This document shows positions 24,325-29,115 of a stretch of DNA of 64,000 nucleotides, piece after piece. Position 1 is the stretch's first letter; each line of letters begins with the position of its first letter. Source of the DNA: Streptomyces odonnellii (GTDB lineage: Bacteria > Actinomycetota > Actinomycetes > Streptomycetales > Streptomycetaceae); assembly GCF_000981895.1 (NCBI RefSeq), contig NZ_LATD01000006.1:1-64000 (forward strand), in the 5' to 3' direction. Position numbers and translations under genes: made by a program. The notes beneath the pieces are model-generated. The model ran no database searches. It was not told the DNA's origin and worked only from the letters and a program-made list of their open reading frames with translations.

Positions 24325-25734
24325 TCACGTTGCCAAACCGCGCCAGCCGCCCTCGTCCACCCCGCCGGGCACATCCGCCTCTGGGTCATAGGGATGGCGG
24401 GTAAAGGCGAACGAGCCAAGGTCGAGATGGTCCACCGAGCCGTCCGGCCTGCGCACCACTCGCAAGGTCTCCCCCGCGTAGTAGCCGTCGAGCCCCGTCC
24501 AGGTGCCATCCGGCTCCGCGGCAAAGCGCGAGCCACGCCCGCCGCCGCGTAGTGGGTGCAGATCCACCCCGCGGTCCGCCGCCAGCTTCAGGGCGAAGGC
24601 ATGGGTGCCCCAGTACCACGGTCCGGTGAGGTCCAGCACCTTCTGATCGACCTCGGGCAGCGGGCGCCAGGGCTCGGGGATCCGAGGCTCGGCATCCGCC
24701 ACAATCCCGATGAGATCGACGGCGACAGCCCCGACCGCCGGCCCCGAGGTGGCATTGGCGAGCACCACCGCCCCCACCCCGTCCGCCACGCTCACCCACA
24801 GGGAGGCGACAAAGCCCGGCAGCGACCCGCCATGGCCGAGCAGGCTCCGGCCGCCCCGGCGGGCAAGCTGGACACCGAGCCCATAGCCGCCGTCCCACTG
24901 CCCGGCCTCGGGCGGAGCGGACGGGGTTCGCATCTCCCGTACGGACTCGGCACTCAGCACCGTGTCGTCGCCCTCGGCGAGGAAGACCGCGAAGCGGCAC
25001 AGATCGGCGGCGGTCGACCAGAGCTGTCCTGCCGGGGCCATCAACCCGAGGTCCATGGCGGGCTCGGGCAGCATCACATCGGCCCAGGGATGCACGGCCC
25101 AGCCTCCGGCATGCGGGGCGACGGGCCGAGCGGTCGTACGGTTCATGCCCAGCGGCTCCAGGATCTCCCGCCGCAGCGCCTCCTCCCAGGACACCCCCCG
25201 TACCGCCTCGATCAGCGAACCCAGCAGGGTGTAGCCGGGATTGGAGTAGTGGTGCCGGCGCCCGGACGGATGGAGTACGGGCCGCTCGCCGAGGACATCG
25301 GAGAGTTCCGGGCGTGAGGTGCCCGGTGTCCGTTCCCACCAGGGTGCCGGAGTCTCGGCAGCCAGTCCCGCGGTGTGGTCGAGAAGCTGGGCGACGGTGA
25401 TCTCGCCCACCCCGGTGCCCGGAAGGTGCTTCTCCAGCGGGTCGCTGAGATCGAGCAGTCCTTCGTCGCGCAGCCGCAGCACCAGTACGGCGGTGAAGGT
25501 CTTGGTGATCGACCCGATGCGGTACTGGGTGTCGGCGTCCGGGGCATGCCCGTCCACACAGGTACGGGAACCCGTCCAGACCATCCGTCCCTCCCGGGCC
25601 ACCGCCGCGACCAGCGAGGGGGCGCGGCCCTCGGACTGGGCGAGGGCGATGCGGTGCAGCAGGGCCCGTCGGGTGCCGGGCAGCAGCTCTTCAAAAGGCG
25701 ATGCGGGCGATGTGGACAATGCAGGCGATGTCAT
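24325..25734 (-). CDS. Serine hydrolase (class C beta-lactamase/esterase family)
   Basis: 469 residues related to penicillin-binding-protein-like hydrolases. The acylation motif is SITK (Ser75, Lys78), the second motif is Y-S-N in HHYSNPGY near 161, and the third is HGG near 290. A C-terminal domain of about 110 residues follows. There is no clear signal peptide, so it probably acts in the cytoplasm, perhaps as an esterase, amidase or peptidase rather than a true beta-lactamase. It is divergent from the decarboxylase operon. The start at ATG 25734 is preferred over 25743; neither has a strong Shine-Dalgarno. Confidence 0.85.
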   Translation of the reverse strand: MTSPALSTSPASPFEELLPGTRRALLHRIALAQSEGRAPSLVAAVAREGRMVWTGSRTCVDGHAPDADTQYRIGSITKTFTAVLVLRLRDEGLLDLSDPLEKHLPGTGVGEITVAQLLDHTAGLAAETPAPWWERTPGTSRPELSDVLGERPVLHPSGRRHHYSNPGYTLLGSLIEAVRGVSWEEALRREILEPLGMNRTTARPVAPHAGGWAVHPWADVMLPEPAMDLGLMAPAGQLWSTAADLCRFAVFLAEGDDTVLSAESVREMRTPSAPPEAGQWDGGYGLGVQLARRGGRSLLGHGGSLPGFVASLWVSVADGVGAVVLANATSGPAVGAVAVDLIGIVADAEPRIPEPWRPLPEVDQKVLDLTGPWYWGTHAFALKLAADRGVDLHPLRGGGRGSRFAAEPDGTWTGLDGYYAGETLRVVRRPDGSVDHLDLGSFAFTRHPYDPEADVPGGVDEGGWRGLAT

Positions 25735-25859
25735 GAGCCACATCTACCGGTGCCGCCCTGCCGAGTCGACTCCATTTCGCAAGCCGCGGAACGGCTGGCA
25801 CGGGCGGGTCGACGCGCGTTGCGCGCCGCTTGCGGTCCGGCCCGTATACGTATTCCCGC

Positions 25860-25913
25860 GTACATCCGAGTCGTACATCCGAGCTGTATGCCCGTATCCG
25901 AGTCGTATGCCCG
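25860..25913. repeat. Short direct repeats between divergent hydrolase and decarboxylase genes
   Basis: ATCCGAGTCGTA occurs at 25864-25875 and 25896-25907, 32 bases apart (about three helical turns). GTACATCCGAG occurs at 25860-25870 and 25873-25883, and GTATGCCCG at 25886-25894 and 25905-25913. The cluster ends about a dozen bases before the decarboxylase start, so it may be an operator, or simply repeat decay. Confidence 0.6.
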
Positions 25914-25925
25914 GGAAGGCTGACC

Positions 25926-27302
25926 GTGGATCTTCGCTACTGGCTGCCGCGCGCGGTGGATGTGGCCGAGCAATGGGGCGAGCGGTTCGGCCCCTACGAG
26001 CCGCATATGGCGCACCGGGTGAGCGACGAGGCGTTCGCCGACGCCTTCAGCCGCTTCGCCAAGCGGATGGAGGACAACTACCCCTTCTTCCATCCGCGTT
26101 ACGCGGGGCAGATGGTGAAGCCGCCGCATCCGGCCGCCGTCGTCGGCTATCTCACGGCGATGCTGTTCAACCCCAACAACCACGCGGCGGAGGGCGGTCC
26201 CGCGACCACCGAGATGGAGCGGGAGTGCGTCGCGGCCCTGGCGGAGATGTTCGGCCTGCCCGCGCATGTCGGACATCTCACGACCAGCGGCACGATGGCG
26301 AACCTCGAAGCGCTGTATGTGGCCCGGCGGCTGCACCCGGACCGCGGCGTGGCGTACAGCTCGGAGTGCCACTACACGCATGAGCGGATGTGCGAGGTGC
26401 TGGGCGTCGAGGGCCACCGGGTCGCGGTCGACTCGTACGGGCGGATCGACCTGGACGCGCTGGAGAGCCTGCTCAAGACGGGACGGATCGGCACGGTGGT
26501 GGTGACCACGGGCACCACGGGTCTGGGGGCCGTGGACCCGGTGCACGAGGTGCTGCCGCTGGCCCGGCGGTACGGGGCGCGGGTACATGTGGACGCGGCG
26601 TACGGCGGTTTCTACGCGCTCCTCGGGCGGGCCGACGCCACCGAGGGGATCGACCCGAGGCCGTGGCAGGCGGTCGCCGAGTGCGACTCGGTCGTGGTGG
26701 ATCCGCACAAGCACGGCCTTCAGCCCTATGGCTGCGGGGCGGTGCTCTTCCCGGATCCGCGCGCGGGCCGGCACTTCGCGCACGACTCGCCGTACACCTA
26801 TTTCACCGATGCCGAGCTGCATTTGGGCGAGATCAGCCTGGAGTGCTCGCGGGCGGGTGCCGCGGCGGCCGGGCTGTGGCTGACTCTCCAGCTCCTGCCG
26901 CTGACCCCGGACGGGTTCGGGGCGATCCTCGCGGCCAACCGCCGCGCGGCGCTGCGCTGGGCGGATCTGCTGGCGGCCTCGGACGCCCTGGAGCTGTACC
27001 AGCGGCCCGATCTCGACATCGTCAACTACTTCCCGGTGACCCGGCCGGCCTCGCTGTCCGCCGTCGACGCGGCGTCGGGACGTCTGCTGCAGGACGGCAT
27101 GACCGCTCATCAGGAGCCGGTCTTTCTGAGTGTGCTGCGTACGGACGCCGAGGCGTTCGTACGCCGGCATCCGCGGATCGTCCGCGACGCCGATGCGGCA
27201 CGGGTAATGCGCAGTGTCCTGATCAAGCCGGAGGCCGAGCACTATCTCGACCGCCTGCACGCCCGGGTGGAGCAACTCGCCGTACGCGGCGAGGAGCGGT
27301 AG
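25926..27302 (+). CDS. Group II PLP-dependent decarboxylase
   Basis: Fold-type I PLP enzyme of the aromatic-L-amino-acid/glutamate decarboxylase group, expected to turn an amino acid into an amine. It is 458 residues from the GTG at 25926, which has GGAAGG eight bases ahead. Visible features are TTSGTMANLEAL near 119, HVDAAYGG (221-228, the Asp contacting the pyridine nitrogen) and the PLP lysine in DPHKHGLQPYG (Lys262). It is the first of three tightly packed genes with a GNAT protein and a DUF6875-like protein. That suggests the amine is then acylated or otherwise modified. The substrate cannot be read from sequence. Confidence 0.88.
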   Translation: MDLRYWLPRAVDVAEQWGERFGPYEPHMAHRVSDEAFADAFSRFAKRMEDNYPFFHPRYAGQMVKPPHPAAVVGYLTAMLFNPNNHAAEGGPATTEMERECVAALAEMFGLPAHVGHLTTSGTMANLEALYVARRLHPDRGVAYSSECHYTHERMCEVLGVEGHRVAVDSYGRIDLDALESLLKTGRIGTVVVTTGTTGLGAVDPVHEVLPLARRYGARVHVDAAYGGFYALLGRADATEGIDPRPWQAVAECDSVVVDPHKHGLQPYGCGAVLFPDPRAGRHFAHDSPYTYFTDAELHLGEISLECSRAGAAAAGLWLTLQLLPLTPDGFGAILAANRRAALRWADLLAASDALELYQRPDLDIVNYFPVTRPASLSAVDAASGRLLQDGMTAHQEPVFLSVLRTDAEAFVRRHPRIVRDADAARVMRSVLIKPEAEHYLDRLHARVEQLAVRGEER

Positions 27303-27337
27303 CGCACGGCCCCCGCACCGCCTTCCGGAGGGAACCG

Positions 27338-27958
27338 TTGTCCACGATCGAAAGTCCGCCGCGTGGTGTCCCGCGCCGTCCTGCCAGGCCGGACACCGAT
27401 GATCTGGCCGCGCTGCTGGCCGCGGCCTTCCACGACGATCCGCTGACCCGCTGGATCATTCCGGACGGCCGACGCCGGGCCGAGCTGCTGCCCGGCCTGT
27501 TCCGGATCTTCGTCGAGGTCTCGCACGACTACGACGGGGTGTCCGTCTCGCCCTGCGGCGACGCGGTGATGCTGTTCCTGCCGCCGGGCGCCTCGAAGCA
27601 GGTGGACGAGCGCGGAGAGGAGCTGGAGCGGCGGTTCGCCGAAGCGCTCGGTGAGTACGCCGAGCCGCTCGGGACCATCGTCAGGCTCCAGGCCGAGCGC
27701 CATCCGGCCGAACCCGACCACTACTACGCGTCGTTCGGCGCGGTCCGCCCCTCGCGGCAGCGGAACGGTCTGCTCTCGGTACTGCTCCAGGAGCTGCTCG
27801 ACCGTGCCGACCGGGACGGCTGCCCGGCGTACACGGAGGCCAGTTCACCCGGTGGTGAGGCACTCTGCCTGCGGCAGAACTTCGTACGGCTGGGCGACGA
27901 CATCGTGCTGCCGGACGGCGGCCCTTCGCTCCGGCCCATGTGGCGGGACCCGCGATGA
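27338..27958 (+). CDS. GNAT-family acetyltransferase of the decarboxylase operon
   Basis: 206 residues with a GNAT-like fold: the N-terminal DLAALLAAAFHDDPLTRWIIPD, a central strand HYYASFGAVRPSRQRNGLLSVLL where the acetyl-CoA loop sits, and the late segment YTEASSPGGEALCLRQNFVRLGD. The start is a TTG at 27338 with a strong GGAGG six bases ahead; no ATG or GTG fits as well. It begins 35 bases after the decarboxylase stop and its stop overlaps the next start (ATGA). Acylation of the amine made by the decarboxylase is a plausible but unproven role. Confidence 0.8.
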   Translation: MSTIESPPRGVPRRPARPDTDDLAALLAAAFHDDPLTRWIIPDGRRRAELLPGLFRIFVEVSHDYDGVSVSPCGDAVMLFLPPGASKQVDERGEELERRFAEALGEYAEPLGTIVRLQAERHPAEPDHYYASFGAVRPSRQRNGLLSVLLQELLDRADRDGCPAYTEASSPGGEALCLRQNFVRLGDDIVLPDGGPSLRPMWRDPR

Positions 27959-28590
27959 GGGGCGACGAGCAGATCCGGTTCTGGACGGCGGCCGAAGTGG
28001 CCGCGGGTGAGGTGCCGCGGCTCCATCTCGGCCACCTCCGCGAGGTCCTGGAGTGGAGCGGCGACTTCCTGGTGTCCGGCCATCCCGAACTGGGCCGCAG
28101 CGGCCCGGTGTGCCCGTACACCCAGCCCTCGCTGCGCAAGCAGCTCTTCCACCTGGCCGTCCTGGCCGACGCGGGGAGCACGGACCTGTCCGCGGCCGTC
28201 GGCTCCCTGCGGGCCTGGTACGAGCGGCTCTCGGCCGACCTCGACGAGGAGGACCAGGAGCTGCTGACCCTGCTGCTGGTCCTGCCGCACTTCGACCGTA
28301 CGGACTCGGGCGAGCTGGACGAGCTTCAGCGCAAGGCCAAGGACGAGTTCGTGGCCGACGGCCTGATGATCGGCCAGTTCCACCCGGTCTGCGAGGAGCC
28401 GGGCCTGTGGAACTCCGGCTTCCGCCCGCTGCGCGCTCCCCTGCCGCTGCTGGCGGTCCGTAAGCTCCTCGTCTTCGACCTGCCGTTCCTGCTGGGCGAC
28501 GACACACACATGGACCACTACCTACGCCGCTTCGCCCCAGCCATCCCGGCCCGCGTCCGCGGCCAGTTGGTCAGCCGAGTCGTCTCCTAG
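27955..28590 (+). CDS. DUF6875-like protein of the decarboxylase operon
   Basis: 211 residues with no catalytic motif I can name. The stretch HPELGRSGPVCPYTQPSLRK near residue 42, the conserved-looking FHPVCEEPGLWNS near 140 and the late PLPLLAVRKLLVFDLPFLLGD resemble DUF6875 proteins, which often sit with biosynthetic genes. I recall this family only roughly. Translation is coupled to the GNAT gene by an ATGA overlap at 27955-27958, so it almost certainly works in the same pathway. A terminator follows. Confidence 0.65.
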   Translation: MRGDEQIRFWTAAEVAAGEVPRLHLGHLREVLEWSGDFLVSGHPELGRSGPVCPYTQPSLRKQLFHLAVLADAGSTDLSAAVGSLRAWYERLSADLDEEDQELLTLLLVLPHFDRTDSGELDELQRKAKDEFVADGLMIGQFHPVCEEPGLWNSGFRPLRAPLPLLAVRKLLVFDLPFLLGDDTHMDHYLRRFAPAIPARVRGQLVSRVVS

Positions 28591-28604
28591 AGACCCGCCA
28601 AGCC

Positions 28605-28642
28605 CCGGTGCCCCGCCCCCTGCCGACGGAGCGGGGCACCGG
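28605..28642 (+). terminator. Terminator closing the decarboxylase operon
   Basis: The 12-base arms CCGGTGCCCCGC (28605-28616) and GCGGGGCACCGG (28631-28642) are perfect complements, with a TTGTT tract a few bases later. It marks the end of the three-gene operon. Confidence 0.85.
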
Positions 28643-28727
28643 CCATTGTTACGTCTGTCGTGTCCGGCCCACGGCCCAACGCCTCCCGGACACAGCCCGC
28701 GCTGGCCCGTCACAGCCCGGAGGTGCT

Positions 28728-29096
28728 ATGTCCTCACGGATGAAGTTGACCGCGATAACGCTCGACTGCCCTGATCCGCCGACTCTCGCGGCGTTCTATC
28801 AGCAGGCCACCGGCCTCGAGCCCCACCCGAAATCCGACGCCGACTTCGCCGGTCTCAGCCGTGGGGACGGGCTCGTCATCGGCTTTCAACGAGTCGACGA
28901 CTACCAGGCACCACGCTGGCCCGACCAGACCGTCCCCCAGCAGTTCCACCTCGACTTCGCGGTCGACGACCTGGACGAGGCCGAGACCCGGCTCCTGGAA
29001 CTGGGTGCGGTCAAGCCGGATCACCAGCCGGGAGGAGACAGATGGCGCGTCTTCACCGATCCGGCCGGCCACCCCTTCTGCGTGGTCAAGGTTTAG
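28728..29096 (+). CDS. VOC-family (glyoxalase-fold) protein
   Basis: 122 residues with one complete vicinal-oxygen-chelate fold: ITLDCPDPPTLAAFYQQATG at the start, FHLDFAVDDLDEAETRLLELGA in the middle and FTDPAGHPFCVVK at the end. Members include glyoxalases, dioxygenases and resistance proteins; the substrate here is unknown. The ATG at 28728 has GGAGGT five bases ahead. It is convergent with dnaB with only 19 bases between the stops. Confidence 0.87.
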   Translation: MSSRMKLTAITLDCPDPPTLAAFYQQATGLEPHPKSDADFAGLSRGDGLVIGFQRVDDYQAPRWPDQTVPQQFHLDFAVDDLDEAETRLLELGAVKPDHQPGGDRWRVFTDPAGHPFCVVKV

Positions 29097-29115
29097 CACC
29101 CCTCCCGACAACGGC

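Follow-up and report, generated by a model that had tools for sequence, protein, structure and literature searches.

The 64,000-nucleotide stretch of Streptomyces odonnellii DNA analysed here (contig NZ_LATD01000006.1, positions 1 to 64,000; hereafter the window) carries, beside dnaB, an operon of three genes encoding a pyridoxal phosphate (PLP)-dependent amino acid decarboxylase (DEC), a GNAT-fold protein and a DUF6875 protein. In our assessment this operon is probably a tailoring module of a biosynthetic cluster controlled by a SARP-family activator, found on another contig of the same genome (C145); it would have moved together with its promoter, would still be under the activator of the cluster and would serve indole chemistry. 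The best-supported new point is that the operon is a detached part of the cluster that kept the promoter repeat of the cluster. The source assembly comprises 8.28 Mb in 648 contigs (G000), of which the window contig is referred to as C556. The features concerned are the following.

24325-25743, minus strand: serine hydrolase (Pfam matches to PF00144 and DUF7586), a neighbour judged to lie outside the unit
25819-25834, plus strand: candidate SARP-type operator, direct repeat TTGCG-N6-TTGCG with an 11-base period, the sole exact match in the window
25845-25850, plus strand: TATACG, possible -10 element, read from the sequence
25926-27302, plus strand: DEC, group II PLP-dependent amino acid decarboxylase, GTG start (PF00282, phmmer against PDB sequences, fold match, conserved H149, D223 and K262)
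27338-27958, plus strand: GNAT-fold protein, TTG start, closest solved relative puromycin N-acetyltransferase (phmmer, structure match)
27955-28590, plus strand: DUF6875 protein, probable heme oxygenase with Cys53 as candidate ligand (PF21780, AglA-like predicted fold)
28591-28655, plus strand: hairpin, likely terminator without a T run (-34.8 kcal/mol, z -3.97)

The three genes form a conserved unit

The genes for DEC, the GNAT-fold protein and the DUF6875 protein (25926-28590) are a real, conserved unit. Their tight spacing, described in an earlier note on this DNA, was confirmed, with a 35-base gap between the first two genes and an ATGA overlap at 27955-27958 between the last two, as was the TTG start of the second gene at 27338, which is preceded by GGAGG. 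The most likely start of DEC is the GTG at 25926, where the orthologues begin with the same GTGGA. Concerning the terminator that the note assigned to the operon, a strong hairpin does follow 28590, none of 200 shuffles being as strong, but it has no T run and is absent from the list produced by a terminator scan.

The earlier note had made co-occurrence of the three families the test of its reading, and the unit passes it. A contig scan for DEC relatives gave 21 loci, 18 of them from Streptomyces, and in 14 of these 18 all three genes are consecutive. The remaining Streptomyces loci are cut or decayed: a contig edge interrupts three (L028, L038 and L040), and in Streptomyces scopuliridis (L048) DEC is reduced to its first 222 residues, with nothing of the unit behind them. 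This remnant (L048:7919-8696) retains the operator as well as the first half of DEC in a genome where the cluster is present (L073). No match to the GNAT-fold or the DUF6875 protein was found in the fetched stretches of the three non-Streptomyces loci with a DEC relative. Among 392 Streptomyces genomes, DEC was detected at E <= 1e-120 in 57, of which 13 have at least 74% identity and 44 have 62-70%; all 13 of the former also carry a matching DUF6875 gene (62% or more). DUF6875 of any kind was present in 19 of 150 genomes, in 5 as the form of the unit (66% or more), in the other 14 as forms at 48% or less, and six plasmid records carry DUF6875 at 60-80%. In Streptomyces lushanensis (G150) no DUF6875 was found, the contig breaking inside the GNAT gene.

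The second DEC clade (62-70%) gave no substrate clue. In nine loci inspected from the 44 genomes that have it, neither DUF6875 nor the GNAT gene of the unit was found nearby, with a gene caller that can miss genes. These DEC genes have other contexts, and one regulator-like gene family, MarR-like by eye, lies near five of the nine (L104-L112). A defence system was also considered and rejected, DEC giving only weak PADLOC matches to SspA and DndA and the other three proteins none.

The unit probably belongs with a large biosynthetic cluster

Genes belonging to a single large conserved cluster surround the unit in 11 of the 14 complete named loci; of the other three, L041 shows only a multicopper oxidase before the contig ends, and L029 and L030 lie elsewhere. 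Composed from several loci, the cluster starts with the multicopper oxidase, which faces the unit, followed on the opposite strand by an alpha/beta hydrolase, indole-3-glycerol phosphate synthase (IGPS), phosphoribosylanthranilate isomerase (PRAI), an acyl-CoA dehydrogenase (PigA/RedW-like) and an ectoine-synthase-like protein. TrpA-like and TrpD-like proteins, an acyl carrier protein (ACP), an adenylating enzyme, MaoC, a ketosynthase and a BioF-like synthase come next, and the end is formed by a SARP, a short-chain dehydrogenase/reductase (SDR), FabH, ACP, a methyltransferase and a flavin-containing monooxygenase. Some loci are short of single genes: no TrpA was called in G129, for instance, and no PRAI in L036. 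Annotated records place cluster and unit together on linear plasmids of strains NBC_01351 and NBC_00523, the former plasmid having gamma-butyrolactone genes in addition, and in G129 some 170 kb separate the unit from either end of the chromosome.

In S. odonnellii itself, the ectoine-synthase-like gene (83% over 124 residues) is on C145, a contig different from that of the window, with the other cluster genes, including a SARP-family gene (L069:10718-11647). The genomes of L028, L029, L030 and L048 likewise have the ectoine-synthase-like gene on contigs other than that of the unit. Beside IGPS in strain MnatMP-M17 (L072) and in S. scopuliridis (L073) there are the alpha/beta hydrolase, methylenetetrahydrofolate reductase and DUF1772 genes, with no unit; the same place is not visible in S. 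odonnellii because C145 ends at IGPS. The genome has one DEC copy at E <= 1e-120. As for the multicopper oxidase that adjoins the unit in relatives, its closest counterpart here reaches only 56% (C207), and near it we found no cluster gene and a weak DUF1772 match.

With the ectoine-synthase-like gene as cluster marker (E <= 1e-55), the 392 Streptomyces genomes divide into 12 with unit and cluster gene, 1 with the unit only (G366), 8 with the cluster gene only and 371 with neither. The cluster gene thus occurs in 12 of 13 genomes with the unit and in 8 of 379 others (Fisher p 7e-17, a value that is too small because the species are related). Distances of unit and cluster genes were correlated in each of 12 gene pairs (Mantel test, r 0.70-0.92, 0 of 2000 permutations), which carries little weight, as common descent alone would also give it.

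A promoter repeat common to the unit and the cluster

SARP operators are paired direct repeats with an 11-base period that stand before a gene, and such a pair, TTGCG-N6-TTGCG, lies at 25819-25834 ahead of DEC. It was found within 250 bases of the DEC start in 19 of 19 upstream regions, compared with 2 of 5700 generated controls, and three further DEC upstream regions (two plasmids and G129) have it as well. Only seven exact copies exist in the 8.28 Mb genome. One precedes DEC, two stand on C145 upstream of the BioF-like and the ACP-FabH-SDR operons, respectively, and four lie in other places. The C145 sites are a fair test because the motif was derived from the DEC upstream regions, and the chance of two of the other six genome sites falling on C145 is 2e-4. 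In the loci tested, counting C145, the repeat precedes the BioF-like gene in nine of nine and the ACP gene in seven of seven, and it is also found in clusters without the unit, before the BioF-like gene in L078 and before both the BioF-like and ACP genes in L143. In L142 no exact repeat was seen in a 20-kb stretch that stops short of those promoters. We regard the repeat as a candidate operator for the SARP of the cluster, to which the activator would bind. Since the unit keeps the promoter repeat of the cluster, the two probably still work together.

The repeat-bearing promoter region of the earlier note does contain three 18-nt near-repeats upstream of DEC (25864-25913), but the conserved repeat is the TTGCG pair instead. 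As a common regulator site the 18-nt triple repeat was rejected, C145 having no copy even when as many as 4 mismatches are allowed. The TATAC of the possible -10 element is partly conserved, in some DEC orthologue upstream regions only, and a sigma-70 consensus scan gave no match.

Several observations weigh against the module reading. The repeat is not enriched genome-wide (7 sites versus 8 for a backwards control pattern), and 20-kb stretches of the related clusters L080 and L081, which are different clusters with part of the genes in common, yielded no exact copy. G366 has the unit and no cluster gene at the cut-off, eight genomes have the cluster gene but lack the unit, and S. scopuliridis keeps the cluster with only the DEC remnant and no DUF6875 found. 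Unit and cluster therefore do not require each other. The case of G366, and gene distances that common descent alone could correlate, would also suit a stand-alone amine pathway unlinked to C145, in which the co-occurrence reflected common ancestry and the operator were a general SARP motif. With three of the only seven exact operators at unit and C145 promoters, the cluster gene in 12 of 13 unit genomes and the unit physically inside the cluster in 11 of 14 complete loci, we hold such a pathway to be very unlikely. As for the compact operon of the earlier note, the unit is in most loci no separate system, lying inside a large cluster and having its promoter repeat in common with it.

Predicted functions of the three proteins

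The first gene does encode a PLP decarboxylase, as the earlier note had stated. DEC matches PF00282 (E 8.4e-27, 94.3 bits versus a cut-off of 27), and a predicted model of middling confidence (pLDDT 69.8) resembles group II decarboxylases with Z up to 30.7; phmmer against PDB sequences also recovered relatives. H149 is kept in 20 of 20 rows and D223 and K262 in all 19 rows with letters at these positions; we take these three to be PLP-binding residues, which together with the profile place DEC in group II.

Membership of the third protein in DUF6875 is clear (PF21780 at residues 28-202, E 2.5e-60, 204 bits versus a cut-off of 24.5). The earlier note named the family correctly and called its function unknown, but a function has now been described: according to the accessible parts of one report, DUF6875 proteins bind heme and can oxidise L-tryptophan, and a preprint on "cytochrome P422" is cited there for the family (PMC13307353). 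In a model predicted from 14 orthologues (pTM 0.70, mean pLDDT 69.6), the top fold match of the window protein is AglA, a YqcI/YcgG heme hydroxylase, with Z 9.1-9.6 versus 7.3 for the next fold, and 149-153 residues aligned at an rmsd of 3.5-4.0. The heme iron of AglA is held by Cys44, as stated in the part of its description available to us (PMC12866846). In the DUF6875 protein, Cys53 within GRxGxVCP is a Cys in 38 of 38 rows (18 distant forms among them, some strains twice) and is invariant in a separate 21-row alignment. The DUF6875 protein is thus predicted to be probably a small heme oxygenase with Cys53 as candidate thiolate ligand. Searching PDB sequences with the DUF6875 profile gave nothing meaningful. 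Another DUF6875 protein (44-45%) was observed in three genomes (L137, L138 and L141) between genes that resemble monooxygenase and non-ribosomal peptide synthetase genes, labels given by eye and from weak AMP-ligase matches.

The GNAT fold of the middle protein is supported by phmmer (E 3.5e-11 to puromycin N-acetyltransferase), and its PF00583 score of 20.6 bits lies just below the cut-off of 20.7. GNAT acetyltransferases have a (Q/R)xxGx(G/A) loop and a Tyr in the acceptor loop. In all 19 orthologues the first G of this loop (position 144) is kept, position 146, usually G or A, is L, M or I, and position 177 holds a residue other than the Tyr with which it aligns in puromycin N-acetyltransferase. 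Because both of these usual residues are absent from the GNAT-fold protein in all 19 orthologues, an N-acylation step is doubtful, and the description of the middle protein as an ordinary acetyltransferase in the earlier note does not hold. The small pathway to an acylated amine imagined there is accordingly upheld for the amine, which is plausible, but not for its acylation.

On the side of the cluster, alignment to solved structures, judged by eye, shows the two acidic residues kept in the C145 TrpA and most catalytic residues kept in the C145 IGPS, with differences at one Arg and in a Ser/Gly stretch late in the chain. A set consisting of AMP-ligase, ACP, TrpD-like, TrpA-like, ectoine-synthase-like, acyl-CoA dehydrogenase, PRAI-like and IGPS-like genes recurs in different clusters and may build an indole- or pyrrole-like ring. 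From gene calls, it was located as follows.

L069, 73-5252: recurring set in C145 of S. odonnellii
L080, 9714-17052: recurring set in a related cluster
L081, 5693-13367: recurring set in a related cluster

An indole-based pathway is the likeliest reading of the chemistry. We infer that the module, taking its promoter along, was relocated to the variable interval that separates the serine hydrolase from dnaB, and that the activator of the cluster would switch it on through the TTGCG-N6-TTGCG operator. The DUF6875 protein, as a heme oxygenase with a probable thiolate ligand, would oxidise tryptophan or an indole amino acid resembling it, DEC would convert the product to an (oxidised) indole-ethylamine, the GNAT-fold protein may modify or hold this amine, and the amine might then be used by, or made beside, the product of the cluster. 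A more specific form, which we find conceivable but doubtful, is a bacterial hydroxy-indole-ethylamine branch, consisting of a small non-P450 heme DUF6875 protein and a decarboxylase, that serves in trans a cluster whose TrpD, TrpF, TrpC and TrpA paralogues make a separate indole- or pyrrole-like ring on a carrier protein, and that travels as a promoter plus three genes while still obeying the SARP.

This chemistry has its own difficulties. The Foldseek match to AglA (E 5e-4) has a TM of only 0.44/0.39, and in the DUF6875 model, with its mean pLDDT of 69.6, low-confidence segments (38-52 and 145-159) adjoin Cys53 and H143. No YqcI/YcgG Pfam match appeared at E up to 10, in a search where most weak matches are removed by the filters of HMMER. 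Of the 18 distant DUF6875 proteins, 15 keep H143, which may therefore be the heme ligand instead. The GNAT-fold protein has lost two usual acetyltransferase residues, AglA acts on arginine compounds, and the structural matches of DEC are tied over several substrates, diaminobutyrate and lysine decarboxylases included.

The last two points would fit a unit acting on another amino acid, such as arginine or a diamino acid, where a hydroxylating heme enzyme and a decarboxylase feed an amine to the cluster: the best fold match of the DUF6875 protein hydroxylates an arginine compound, and the best structural matches of DEC include the two decarboxylases just named. DUF6875 proteins are, however, reported to act on tryptophan in what is accessible of PMC13307353, and the cluster has TrpD, TrpF, TrpC and TrpA paralogues with most IGPS and TrpA catalytic residues kept by eye, so that a substrate other than tryptophan appears rather unlikely to us.

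A start as in physostigmine biosynthesis was also weighed, in which the DUF6875 protein hydroxylates tryptophan, DEC decarboxylates it and the GNAT-fold protein N-acetylates the amine, so that N-acetyl-hydroxytryptamine would be the end product or else an intermediate in protected form. In the physostigmine route PsmH and PsmF make N-acetylserotonin from 5-hydroxytryptophan, as far as the available text of PMC8403405 goes, and the closest solved relative of the GNAT-fold protein is an N-acetyltransferase. The likeness is one of description. Positions 146 and 177 are altered in all 19 orthologues and the NBC_01351 and NBC_00523 plasmid records label the GNAT gene of the unit "hypothetical protein"; we judge this start improbable.

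The serine hydrolase and the site beside dnaB

The serine hydrolase is a core neighbour and not a partner of the unit, because it is present in 31 of 31 Streptomyces genomes examined and occupies the same place in six of six fetched genomes without the unit. Their gene order is constant (MATE, dnaB, hydrolase, GNAT, with 0.09 to 4.8 kb between dnaB and the hydrolase), this gap holding other genes in three and none in three according to the gene caller. It follows that the unit occupies a gap that varies between genomes. The divergent PBP-like serine hydrolase of the earlier note is indeed there on the minus strand, but its membership in the unit fails, and a role as partner or in self-protection was rejected on the same 31 genomes. 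Where the note has the unit interrupting otherwise conserved genes of the ori region, this variable gap is the place concerned. The note was thus largely right in its observation and wrong in the partner gene, and its interpretation is partly supported.

Among the loci examined, the unit lies beside the hydrolase only in the window, in S. lushanensis (L028) and in MnatMP-M17 (L029). The interval from the serine hydrolase to dnaB (25743-29115 in the window) is an insertion spot whose length and content vary among Streptomyces. Between the unit and dnaB it also holds a glyoxalase/VOC-type gene (28728-29096), for which the six genomes lacking the unit gave no match within their 20-kb stretches.

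Comparison with known systems

Among titles and abstract openings of the open-licence literature, we found no description of a cluster that combines tryptophan-branch paralogues with carrier proteins, and none of the unit in searches on the cluster, on N-acetyltryptamine in Streptomyces and on 7-hydroxytryptamine. The nearest case is the zigralone cluster of Micromonospora zingiberis, where, in the accessible parts of the report, a DUF6875 gene (zigI) also lies in a biosynthetic cluster and is proposed to encode an indole C-7 hydroxylase, its deletion giving a demethoxylated product (PMC13307353). ZigI differs in that its substrate is a prenylated indole and a methyltransferase acts alongside it, and, unlike the unit described here, the main text of that paper is without the words decarboxylase and acetyltransferase. 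The AglA and YqcI/YcgG hydroxylases, as far as their description is available, may be alike in a sandwich-type fold, four-stranded in that family and predicted for DUF6875, and in one invariant Cys early in the chain (PMC12866846), which makes Cys53 a candidate counterpart of Cys44; they differ in having no sequence-profile match to DUF6875 and in being described for guanidine N-H hydroxylation. The physostigmine psm genes resemble the unit, by description, in combining decarboxylation and N-acetylation of hydroxytryptophan as a set, whereas the hydroxylase is not named in the accessible parts of PMC8403405 and the GNAT-fold protein of the unit has altered motifs.

The unit offers a close homologue set for testing DUF6875 heme enzymes beside a decarboxylase. 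Genome mining mostly treats a cluster as one contiguous stretch, and a lone sub-operon beside dnaB would be missed or misread as a separate system; a common operator is a direct route to finding such detached parts. SARP-controlled Streptomyces clusters have direct repeats of 11-base period before their main operons and the SARP gene inside the cluster, and the arrangement described here differs from them in that one sub-operon with the same repeat lies on another contig.

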